A DNA stretch of 7,618 nucleotides from Gammaproteobacteria bacterium (lineage in GTDB: Bacteria > Pseudomonadota > Gammaproteobacteria > SURF-13). The stretch covers positions 1 through 7,618 of the forward strand of contig JAMDBH010000165.1 in the NCBI GenBank assembly GCA_023487615.1, in the 5' to 3' direction. Numbering within the stretch: position 1 is the stretch's first letter; each line of letters begins with the position of its first letter. Positions 2,313 to 4,663 of the stretch are shown in pieces. A program made the position numbers and the translations under genes. Below the pieces are notes generated by a model. That model was not told the DNA's origin. It was given only the letters and a program-made list of their open reading frames with translations, and did not search any database.

Positions 2313-3608
2313 ATGAAACGCAGTCTCGCGGCAGACGTGCGCCCCGGAGAGCTGTGGGCCTGGGCGATGTATGACTTTGCCAACTCAGGTTATACCACAG
2401 TCGTGATCACCGCGATCTTCAACGCCTATTTTGTGGCGGAGGTGGCGGGAAATGCGCAGTGGGCCACCCTGGTCTGGACCCTGGCCTTGGCGGTTTCCTA
2501 CGCCCTCATTATGCTGACCGCACCCGTGGTGGGGGCCTACGCCGACATCTATGCCGCCAAGAAGCGTCTGCTGGCGGTGACCACCGTAGGCTGTGTCCTG
2601 GCTACCGCGGCATTGGGTTGGGTGGGCCCGGGCGATCTCTGGCTCGGCATAGTGCTGATAGTACTCTCCAATTTTTTCTTCGGCAGCGGTGAAAATATTA
2701 TTGCTGCCTTTCTCCCTGAACTGGCACGCGGCCGTGGGCTGGGCAGGGTATCCGGCTGGGGCTGGGGGCTCGGCTATGTGGGCGGATTAGTAAGCCTCGG
2801 CCTTTCTCTTGCCTACGTGACGTGGGCGCAGGGGCAGGGGCAGCAAGCCGCTCAGTTTGTGCCCGTGACCATGCTCATCACTGCGAGCCTGTTCGCTCTG
2901 GCGAGCCTGCCCACCTTTATGTTTTTGCGTGAGCGGGCGATACCCAACCCTGCCTTGCAAGCTCATAGTGTGGCGGCCGGTGCCTTCGCGCGCGTGGCGC
3001 AAACTCTCAAACGGGTTCACCATTACCGCGATCTGCGTCTGTTCCTGATCTGCACGGTGTTCTATCAGGCAGGCATCATGGCAGTAGTGAGCCTCGCCGC
3101 CATCTATGCCACGCAAGTGATGGGCTTCTCCACCCAGGACACCTTACAGTTGATTCTGGTGGTCAACGTTACCGCCGCCATCGGAGCCTTCTTCTTTGGG
3201 TATCTCCAGGACCGCATCGGTCACATCCCTGCTATTGCCTTGGTTTTACTGGGCTGGCTTGTTACGGTCGCACTGGTGTGGCTTGCGCGCGGGCCGGGCC
3301 TGTTTTGGCTGGCGGCCAATCTGGCGGGCCTGTGTCTGGGCGGCAGCCAATCGGCCGGCCGCGCCTTGGTGGGTCTGCTGAGTCCCGCCAACCGCCGCGC
3401 CGAATTTTTCGGCCTGTGGGGACTCGCGGTCAAACTCTCCGCTATTCTCGGCCCGGTGACCTACGGCCTGGTGAGCTGGTTGTCGCAAGGCGATCACCGC
3501 TTGGCCATGCTGATGACCGGCGGTTATTTCCTAGTAGGACTCGCACTATTGAGTCGTGTTGATGTGAAGCGGGGGCGACGTGCCGCGTTGAGTAGAGGCA
3601 ATCAGTAG
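2313..3608 (+). CDS. MFS transporter, UMF1 family (Atg22-like)
   Basis: This 431-residue inner-membrane protein is a major facilitator transporter of the UMF1 type, related to the yeast vacuolar amino-acid exporter Atg22. Its substrate in bacteria is not established. Family signatures are WAMYDFANSGYTTVV near the N-terminus (17-31), PVVGAYAD with AAKKRLL (71-87, the MFS loop 2-3 motif), and NIIAAFLPELA followed by GRVSGWGWGLGYVGG (128-158). Repeated hydrophobic stretches fit about 12 membrane spans with a central loop near residues 205-235. A strong AAGGAG (2302-2307) lies 5 nt before the ATG and decides the start. The tail VDVKRGRRAALSRGNQ is basic and cytoplasmic by the positive-inside rule. 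The TAG stop at 3606-3608 lies inside the first 80-bp repeat copy, so the present C-terminus may have been set by arrival of that repeat. Confidence 0.88.
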   Translation: MKRSLAADVRPGELWAWAMYDFANSGYTTVVITAIFNAYFVAEVAGNAQWATLVWTLALAVSYALIMLTAPVVGAYADIYAAKKRLLAVTTVGCVLATAALGWVGPGDLWLGIVLIVLSNFFFGSGENIIAAFLPELARGRGLGRVSGWGWGLGYVGGLVSLGLSLAYVTWAQGQGQQAAQFVPVTMLITASLFALASLPTFMFLRERAIPNPALQAHSVAAGAFARVAQTLKRVHHYRDLRLFLICTVFYQAGIMAVVSLAAIYATQVMGFSTQDTLQLILVVNVTAAIGAFFFGYLQDRIGHIPAIALVLLGWLVTVALVWLARGPGLFWLAANLAGLCLGGSQSAGRALVGLLSPANRRAEFFGLWGLAVKLSAILGPVTYGLVSWLSQGDHRLAMLMTGGYFLVGLALLSRVDVKRGRRAALSRGNQ

Positions 3609-3684
3609 GGTGGGCACAAGTTGCCCACATGTTTCAAATCGGGGTTGAGTTCGCGTGGGCAAAAAATCCATTTAGCCACCCTAC
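3605..3684. repeat. 80-bp palindromic repeat, copy 1
   Basis: This intergenic element starts GTAGGGTGG and ends CCACCCTAC, a perfect 9-bp terminal inverted repeat. Inside the left end is a perfect 7-bp hairpin, GTGGGCA (3610-3616) and TGCCCAC (3622-3628), with a 5-nt loop. A second GTGGGC at 3655-3660 can pair imperfectly with GCCAC at 3675-3679. It aligns without gaps to copy 2 at 4347-4426 in the same orientation, with 14 mismatches in 80 by hand; the 28-bp core 3637-3664 has only one. The TAGGGTGGGC...GCCCACCCTA type of end is, from memory, common in dispersed intergenic repeats of proteobacteria. It could act as a bidirectional terminator or be a REP/MITE-like element. Its TAG ends the MFS gene. 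Confidence 0.85.
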
Positions 3685-3690
3685 GAGAGC

Positions 3691-3975
3691 TTAGGCAGCG
3701 AGTTTCTTAACGCGCAATTCACGACGATGCTGTTCGGCTTGCCAAAGATCATACTGCACCTGTTGGTTAAGCCAACTTTCGGAAGACGTACCAAAGGCAA
3801 TCGAAAGGCGAACAGCCATCTCCGGGCTGATACCTACCCGTCCGTTGAGAATAGCGGAGAGCGTTTTGCGCGACACACCCAGCGCCTCAGCCATGTGTGT
3901 TACGGTAAGGCCGAGCGGCTCAAGACACAACTGTCTTAATACTTGACCGGGATGGGGAGGATTGTGCATTAGCAT
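3691..3975 (-). CDS. higA: HigA-family antitoxin (XRE-type DNA-binding protein)
   Basis: This 94-residue protein is a HigA/VapI-type antitoxin. It neutralises the HigB toxin encoded just upstream and represses the shared promoter. The family start MHNPPHPG is present, followed by a helix-turn-helix around residues 24-50 ([20 protein letters not shown] and NGRVGIS). A short amphipathic C-terminal part ends VKKLAA. The start at 3975 is chosen because AAGG lies 7 nt before it; the ATG at 3969 gives the usual MHNPP start but is farther from that site. The higB stop is 9 nt upstream of this start, so the two genes are one transcript with the toxin first, the inverted order typical of hig loci. The TAA stop is 6 nt from the end of repeat copy 1. 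Confidence 0.9.
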
Positions 3976-3984
3976 AATTGAACC

Positions 3985-4263
3985 TTAGTGGTAATCTTCA
4001 TAATCAACATGTGTGACATGGCCGCCAACAAACGTGAAGGTCACGCGCCAGTTGCCGCTGACCTTTACCACCCAAGTTCCCTTTCGGTTTCCGGTGAGCG
4101 GATGTAACATGAGGCCAGGAAGATTCATATCCTGCGGTGCAACTGACACATTCAAACGGCCAAGAATAAGCCGGAGCCGCTCGGCGTGCTGTGCCTGAAT
4201 GCCTGCCTTGGCGCCCTTAAGGAAAAATCGTTCGAGACCTTTATGCTTAAAGGAACGGATCAC
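3985..4263 (-). CDS. higB: HigB-family toxin (RelE/ParE-like mRNA interferase)
   Basis: This 92-residue protein is a HigB toxin, a ribosome-dependent mRNA endonuclease of the RelE fold, closest by eye to the plasmid Rts1 HigB group. Visible signatures are MIRSFKHKGLERFF (1-14), GIQAQHAERLRLIL (21-34), DMNLPGLMLHPL (45-56), the GNWRVTF core (70-76) with R73, and the C-terminal DYEDYH containing D90, Y91 and H92. As I recall, these last residues and R73 matter for Rts1 HigB activity. Residue 57 is T where Rts1 HigB has K by my alignment. The start codon is GTG at 4263, matching the family N-terminus, but no Shine-Dalgarno is visible; the predicted transcription start falls almost on it. GC is about 50%, lower than the flanking genes. 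The toxin looks intact. Confidence 0.9.
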   Translation of the reverse strand: MIRSFKHKGLERFFLKGAKAGIQAQHAERLRLILGRLNVSVAPQDMNLPGLMLHPLTGNRKGTWVVKVSGNWRVTFTFVGGHVTHVDYEDYH

Positions 4264-4269
4264 GCGATA

Positions 4270-4298
4270 AGTGTAACTCGAAACGCCTCACGTTACAA
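4270..4298 (-). promoter_or_regulatory. Likely higBA promoter
   Basis: On the minus strand, TTGTAA (4298-4293) and TACACT (4275-4270) are spaced by 17 bp; each matches consensus at four of six positions. Transcription would start about 7 nt downstream of the -10 box, at or next to the GTG start of higB at 4263, which would make the message leaderless or nearly so. Confidence 0.45.
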
Positions 4299-4313
4299 TG
4301 TGTCTAACGTTAG
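4290..4313. promoter_or_regulatory. Candidate HigA operator: nested inverted repeats
   Basis: ACGTTA (4290-4295) and TAACGT (4305-4310) form an inverted repeat with a 9-bp spacer. The right arm lies within a perfect 10-bp palindrome, CTAACGTTAG (4304-4313). The left arm overlaps the predicted -35 box of higBA, so binding would block transcription, as expected for autoregulation by HigA. From memory, a similar TTAACGTTAA palindrome has been reported for Pseudomonas HigA. The role is inferred from position and symmetry. Confidence 0.5.
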
Positions 4314-4346
4314 CGATGAGCGTCGGGGCAACAGCAAGCGAAGCCA

Positions 4347-4426
4347 GTAGGGTGGCAACTTGTTGCCAACATGGTTCGAATCGGGGTTGAGTTTGCGTGG
4401 GCAAAAGATCCGTTTGCCTAGCCTAC
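4347..4426. repeat. 80-bp palindromic repeat, copy 2
   Basis: This is the second copy of the element at 3605-3684, in direct orientation and of identical length, 742 bp further on. It starts GTAGGGTGG but ends TAGCCTAC, so its terminal inverted repeat is degraded. The left hairpin is preserved by different bases: TGGCAA (4353-4358) pairs with TTGCCA (4363-4368) around a 4-nt loop, in a register shifted from copy 1. This suggests that the fold, more than the sequence, is kept. It lies between the higBA promoter region and the stop of the orphan antitoxin gene, where that gene's toxin partner would be expected. Confidence 0.82.
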
Positions 4427-4432
4427 ATGAGT

Positions 4433-4633
4433 TCAAAGCTCGGAGCACGATCCGGATTGAAAGGACTTCAGGGCGGCATTGGCCAAACTATCGAGTTTCC
4501 CTGAGCGGGCATCTTCCTCGATTTGACGGTCCCACGCCTCGGAATCAAACTCGCGGAACCAAATACGAAAAGCCACCAACTCCGCGGAGGATAGCGCGAC
4601 AATCTCGCGTTCAATACTCTCGACTTTGCTCAT
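4433..4633 (-). CDS. Orphan antitoxin-like protein (addiction-module component type)
   Basis: This 66-residue acidic protein, MSKVESIEREIVALSSAELV then AFRIWFREFDSEAWDRQIEE and DARSGKLDSLANAALKSFQS, resembles the small antitoxin proteins usually encoded just before a RelE/ParE-like toxin. The motif WFxEFDxxxWDRQIEEDAxxGKLD is characteristic of that group in my recollection; no biochemical role is shown by the sequence itself. The ATG at 4633 is preferred because GGAA lies about 7 nt before it; an in-frame ATG at 4645 would add METV but has no ribosome site. The C-terminus appears complete. The expected toxin gene should follow immediately, but after 6 nt comes repeat copy 2 and then the separate higBA unit. 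The gene is therefore an orphan, either a relic or able to cross-act. Confidence 0.7.
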   Translation of the reverse strand: MSKVESIEREIVALSSAELVAFRIWFREFDSEAWDRQIEEDARSGKLDSLANAALKSFQSGSCSEL

Positions 4634-4663
4634 AACAGTTTCCATCGGATCGGAACATGCAAA

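Follow-up and report, generated by a model that had tools for sequence, protein, structure and literature searches.

A HigBA toxin-antitoxin operon between two direct copies of a REPIN-type element in a gammaproteobacterial contig

The window considered here (the whole stretch analysed, 7,618 nucleotides of contig JAMDBH010000165.1, assembly GCA_023487615.1, from a gammaproteobacterium of the SURF-13 lineage) contains a higBA toxin-antitoxin (TA) operon enclosed by two direct copies, A and B, of an 80-bp repeat. Judged by their anatomy, the repeats are REPINs (dimers of repetitive extragenic palindromic sequences, REPs), a known class of miniature element attributed to REP-associated tyrosine transposases (RAYTs). 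We consider it somewhat probable that the two REPINs arrived separately, that HigBA was acquired between them, and that the trio is now immobile as a unit. The starting points are direct observations: the REPIN anatomy, the presence of the family and of a RAYT gene in a close relative, the absence of the block there, and the divergence and decay of the copies. The central features are as follows.

3605-3684, plus strand: REPIN A, two inverted GTAG REPs and a spacer, overlapping the end of the upstream transporter gene
3691-3975, minus strand: higA, antitoxin gene (TIGR02607, 109 bits, cut-off 47.7; PF01381)
3985-4263, minus strand: higB, RelE-like toxin gene (PF05015, 63 bits, cut-off 27)
4264-4346, minus strand: region upstream of higB, 83 bp, presumed promoter, holding GTTAGAC
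4347-4426, plus strand: REPIN B, direct copy of A

The repeats and the operon

The copies lie 742 bp apart in the same orientation and agree without gaps in 66 of 80 positions. The sequence-only reading had given the same coordinates, length, orientation and identity, and a 28-bp core with one mismatch; all of this was confirmed, the core consisting of 15 and 12 matches around the mismatch, so that the longest exact run is 15 bp. The pair can be extended to 87 nt at 82% identity. When A is compared with the window by BLAST, B is found at E = 7.8e-20 and the next match at E = 0.78. The same reading had called the repeat palindromic. The palindrome is imperfect: the outer 12 bases match their own reverse complement in 10 positions in A and in 8 in B. 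Folded as single strands (plus strand), A has z = -2.75 relative to shuffles, and B folds hardly better than they do (z = -1.22).

All four arms start with GTAGG, the REPs within each copy being inverted relative to each other, and the repeats can be aligned with GTAG REPINs from relatives. These four arms and 20 arms from relatives have in common GTAG, an unpaired GG and a stem. The stem next to GTAG has seven pairs, with 96.9% of cells paired over 23 distinct arms. Of 21 arms, 12 carry C-G and 9 carry A-U at its pair 13-25, which is never broken and is gapped in two others; none of 500 shuffles reached the same covariation. In the window, stem mismatches occur in the right arm of A and, in the aligned register, in both arms of B, the left one of which can, by eye, still pair in a shifted register.

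This anatomy is that of GTAG REPs (PMC3733652) and of REPINs (PMC3116915), and on this ground the element is identified as a REPIN. The likeness includes the GTAG feet, the unpaired dinucleotide before the stem, the head-to-head extragenic dimers of about 80 bp, and, in the closely related genome G367, a RAYT accompanied by the same REPs. The window differs in that two REPINs stand as direct copies enclosing a TA pair, and copy number is low (11 dimers in G367). A search of Rfam gave no match. No target-site duplication is visible in the flanks of A and B; RAYT elements need not produce one.

The operon consists of a HigB-like toxin gene directly followed by a gene for a helix-turn-helix antitoxin of the HigA type. 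Gene order and profile matches are those of type II HigBA modules, no difference was seen in the genes themselves, and the pair is most likely an ordinary, common type II module. REPIN A lies 6 bp after higA, and REPIN B 83 bp before higB. The earlier claim that higB, higA and their promoter are enclosed in the 742-bp repeat-to-repeat unit stands, the genes by profile and the promoter as presumed within the 83 bp. Promoter and terminator scans of the window gave no more matches than in shuffles, and no consensus promoter was found. A terminator role for the REPINs was considered and is unsupported, as the terminator scan did no better than shuffles. As had been stated before, no transposase or integrase is nearby: none was found among the ten open reading frames (ORFs) of the window scanned with Pfam.

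Related elements and a RAYT in other genomes

A search by the RmuC protein identified a six-genome family whose closest member to the window is G367 (RmuC identity 95%); many of the compared genomes are fragmentary. The motif GTAGGGTGGGCA, with at most one mismatch, occurs 38 times in G367 (30 exact), against 11 times for the reversed control. Among the 38 matches, 22 form 11 convergent dimers of 62 to 132 bp. On contig 40 of this genome a RAYT gene (NF047646, 192 bits, cut-off 80) lies between two of the same REPs. REPINs abut stop codons also in G408 and in several places of G367, with gaps of 3-12 bp. The sequence-only reading had named, as evidence against a cassette, hundreds of copies with random neighbours. 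In G367 there are only these 38 matches and 11 dimers; on the other hand, the neighbours that were scanned are mostly ordinary genes, with two TA-like exceptions.

Several details of G367 may be recorded here. On contig 40, a hicBA-like pair lies between REPs beside the RAYT gene (L183:5874-7300; PF07927 above the cut-off, HicB-like below), and the 3' end of the RAYT gene with its REP is duplicated in tandem. On contig 36, a small gene pair (L116:8919-9469), whose second gene matches PF10049 (DUF2283), ends 37 bp before the REPIN most similar to A; it is possibly another TA pair.

A class-wide scan found the dimer in 11 of 369 genomes, the reversed control giving 0 among the rows shown; the spacer allowed was too tight for the dimers of G367 itself, and thus the spread is understated. 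A scan of viral contigs for the dimer gave 10 loci. Relatives were also sought through the protein of the upstream major facilitator superfamily (MFS) transporter gene. None of the 80 loci obtained (65-75% identity) keeps the interval, and only one, L014, keeps a further neighbour from the window, a metallo-beta-lactamase-fold gene. The element was not found in these 80 loci, nor in the 40 of the 80 genomes that were searched, an empty search that proves nothing.

The same site in G367

Comparison with G367 (locus L110) concerns the following features.

2313-3608, plus strand: MFS transporter gene (PF11700, PF07690), whose stop codon is the TAG of REPIN A
3605-4431, no strand: block missing from the matching interval of G367
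4433-4645, minus strand: orf70, putative antitoxin gene without a partner, from the comparison with G367

REPIN A extends into the last codon of the MFS gene and provides its stop codon, and REPIN B ends 6 bp before the stop codon of orf70. The flanks of the window and of G367 align at 90-93% on both sides. Homology breaks off at 3607, where A has its outer end, and resumes at 4432, just outside B. The G367 interval contains about 1.6 kb of other DNA and no REPIN. In it we observed a ParE-like gene directly after orf70 (PF24732, 22.5 bits, just below the cut-off of 24.4), a fragment of an IS5-type transposase (NF033581), and two extra pieces of the rmuC 3' end. Orf70 and the ParE-like gene lie inside a 117-bp direct duplication of the rmuC 3' end (L110:8158-9612), with a further rmuC 3' piece beyond. 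The orf70 of the window seems to have lost the toxin partner that G367 keeps. Downstream of rmuC, other ORFs are found in G408, G153 and G269. Given these differences between the compared sequences, the place is a site of gene turnover.

An empty site with a single copy of the repeat had been proposed as what a relative might show. G367 does not show it, since its interval has zero copies and other DNA instead. The plasmid and phage collections contained no match to more than 70% of the block.

Age of the pair and proposed history

The two copies differ by 17.5%, and the window and G367 by 18.1% at 731 four-fold degenerate sites in five genes. Because of this similar divergence, the short longest exact run and the decayed arms, the pair is probably old, and recombination between the copies or their efficient cutting today is improbable. 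The proposal that the unit could excise or move by recombination between the copies is therefore not upheld, as nothing shows present mobility in the window. The companion proposal, a transposase acting in trans, fares better as regards the class of element, which is held to be moved by RAYTs, but meets the same decay of the copies.

The history that we favour is as follows. Two GTAG-type REPINs, presumably spread by a RAYT encoded elsewhere, would have inserted independently of each other next to two stop codons, those of the MFS gene and orf70, at the place downstream of rmuC where gene content appears to change. The HigBA pair between them would have come by horizontal transfer and may once have been an integron cassette. 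The REPINs decayed, and the trio probably does not excise or move as a unit today. Being addictive, HigBA may resist loss from its slot between direct repeats; TA cassettes have been reported to stabilise a superintegron array (PMC11551772).

Three observations weigh against this history. Firstly, A and B are mutual nearest relatives among the 13 REPINs compared, if barely (84%, the next being 82 and 81%), which fits a common origin of both. Secondly, the block gained or lost relative to G367 is bounded by REPIN ends on both sides. Finally, direct repeats flank HigBA modules of other loci at a higher rate than they flank neighbouring genes, and thus the bracket in the window may be no accident.

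Repeats around HigBA modules elsewhere

The last observation comes from two samples of HigB matches, for which up to 10 kb on each side were fetched: all 48 places of the first sample and 27 of the 29 of the second, two places in G112 having been seen already. A module was considered bracketed if a direct repeat of at least 35 bp and at least 75% identity was present within 450 bp on both sides of the operon. Four of the 48 and one of the 27 places were left out for short flanks. The idea arose on loci overlapping the first sample; only the second is fresh.

In the first sample, direct repeats bracket 9 of 44 testable modules, and inverted repeats none. The corresponding numbers were 10/930 for random places in the same loci and 5/417 for gene-bounded units, with 1/417 inverted. 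In the fresh sample, direct brackets were found around 5/26 modules (one inverted) and 3/119 gene-bounded units (none inverted), p = 0.005. Pooling yields 14/70 against 8/536 (p = 3e-9), or 6/302 if only units from the same loci are considered (p = 3e-7). Against small two-gene operons the excess is weaker: 5/108 of these are bracketed (p = 0.0015), or 4/61 in the same loci (p = 0.02), where there are also two inverted brackets. An earlier look with other cut-offs had given 6/32 (46 loci, 14 of them too short) against 2/268. Direct brackets outnumber inverted ones by 14 to 1 around the 70 modules, and by 8 to 1 around the 536 control units; as controls lean the same way, this preference is not special to HigBA. 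Six queries with other TA toxins gave two bracketed loci among eight testable ones; since one of these two (L110) was known beforehand, the result is of little help in judging whether HigBA is special.

The 14 brackets were classified by eye and post hoc.

attC-like (five): L266, L272, L275, L351, L360
palindromic, REP-like (six): L273, L281, L289, L292, L294, L359
other (three): L295, probably coding; L340, RHS-like coding; L338, unclear

Loci L292 and L294 contain the same block and represent a single event. If only palindromic pairs are considered, 6/70 modules stand against about 3/536 control units assessed by the same eye (p = 1e-4), or 5/69 with the shared block counted once (p = 7e-4). 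The distances from the repeats to the end of higA and to the start of higB are 9 and 66 bp in L273, 14 and 87 bp in L359, and 9 and 53 bp in the attC-like L266, similar to 6 and 83 bp in the window. Many shared HigBA blocks end near the operon without a bracket in the two samples, e.g. those of L280 and L282 (95% over 693 bp). In L295 (positions 353-1509, genome G171), HigBA lies between 208-bp direct copies that are 92% alike, open in the same frames, and not palindromic.

Two cases of REP-like brackets deserve description. In G262 (L281:5004-11020), TA-like operons are parted by direct copies of a 147-nt palindromic repeat, four of them 70-93% alike and one partial. Between the copies there are ParE- and Phd-like genes, higBA, and a YefM/YoeB-like pair, and a Phd-like gene immediately precedes the first copy. 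One slot between two copies contains a radical-SAM gene, and thus not every slot holds a TA pair. The arrangement resembles a cassette array, but without attC. The repeat has 29 matches in the genome, spread out, 19 of them in one orientation. In G301 (L292:9462-10490) and G190 (L294:1889-2920), a REP-higBA-REP block is 94.3% identical over 1,036 bp. The match begins at the left REP and ends 4 bp past the right one. L294 has two identical 45-bp REPs, while those of L292 agree at 98%. Outside the block the only DNA matches are pieces of REPs, and protein matches between L292 and L294 are confined to the block and its REP edges (the available flanks of L294 are 1.9 kb and 9.4 kb). Thus, on the evidence of these alignments, the same REP-bounded HigBA block sits in two unrelated places.

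The sequence-only reading had remarked that TA pairs packaged between small repeats would be an unusual, cassette-like arrangement. The excess of brackets around HigBA and the cases of G262 and of G301 and G190 speak for it, while a part of the brackets represents the known integron route.

Alternative explanations

One alternative is capture by recombination: incoming higBA DNA with one or two REPs recombined at a resident REP, leaving direct copies. REPs are patches of homology shared between genomes, and units bounded by them would be exchangeable without a dedicated integrase. The block shared by G301 and G190 with its edges at REPs is consistent with this, as is the finding that in G276 and G262 the best genome match of the left copy (among 6 and 29 matches, respectively) is the right copy. 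The prevalence of direct over inverted brackets also agrees with it, though the controls lean alike. However, the copies in the window are only 82.5% alike with their short exact match, their similarity stops at the REPIN limits, and the G367 interval is not a single-copy empty site. For the window we therefore regard capture as unlikely, though a serious contender.

A second alternative is a composite mobile unit, REPIN-higBA-REPIN, moved whole by a RAYT that cuts at its outer REP feet. It would account for the breaks relative to G367 at the outer REPIN ends and for the ends of the G301/G190 block at REPs. A RAYT with the same REPs is present in G367, and in vitro these enzymes cleave single-stranded DNA next to REPs, at CT or CA (PMC8266576). 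On the other hand, the RAYT units described are single REPINs (PMC3116915), both copies in the window are decayed, no second copy of the block is known, and the plasmid and phage collections yielded no match to more than 70% of it. We give this explanation little credence. Composite transposons and genes flanked by miniature inverted-repeat transposable elements likewise carry cargo between two copies of a mobile element; the window differs from them in having no transposase in the copies and no target-site duplication seen, and its mobility is not shown.

An integron cassette with the repeats themselves as attC sites is scarcely credible, because these align with GTAG REPINs, the GTTGAGT of A and B is not conserved in the related REPINs L113 and L116, the window lacks a RYYYAAC match after higA (GCCTAAG instead), so that no attC with both GTTRRRY and RYYYAAC core sites was found in it, and there is no integrase among the scanned ORFs. 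The window shares with integron TA cassettes a compact TA operon between direct palindromic repeats with a spacing of about 680-740 bp, but its repeats are REPINs, and neither an integrase nor an array is seen.

For higBA alone the integron link is closer. Relatives of the window HigBA lie between the attC-like repeats listed above, and some shared HigBA blocks end at core-like motifs. The window contains GTTAGAC, an integron-type core motif, on the minus strand at 4308-4302, 45 bp before higB. In 14 of 77 loci, including the window, the pattern GTTRRRY is present 20-70 bp upstream of higB; the adjacent intervals have it in 1-7 of about 76 loci, and the opposite strand in 2 of 77. Possibly, higBA alone is a former integron cassette. 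Since some shared HigBA blocks end at integron-type core motifs, integrons are one route for HigBA; other shared blocks end at bare edges.

Implications

A more general reading may be offered tentatively, as one that we hold to be possible rather than probable. Direct REP copies may serve as integron-like boundaries for TA pairs in unrelated REP families and with no integrase, TA operons entering REP slots, moving between them, and being kept there through REP recombination or RAYT action; the window would be one old, decayed instance. The REP families concerned are unrelated: GTAGGGTGGGC in the window, GTAGCCTGGAT in G301 and G190, and the 147-nt palindrome in G262. Recombination between REPs, or RAYT action beside them, could carry units that they bound. 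The REPIN class, HigBA and the integron route are known. We found no report of TA pairs bounded by direct REPs in the open-licence literature searched, PMC3390384 included.

The question at stake is how, outside integrons, small TA modules that lack their own enzyme are transferred singly between chromosomes. Direct repeats enclose roughly a fifth of the HigBA modules of this kind, a frequency four to thirteen times that for nearby gene units, depending on the control. If the pattern holds, addiction modules would have docking sites in REPs.

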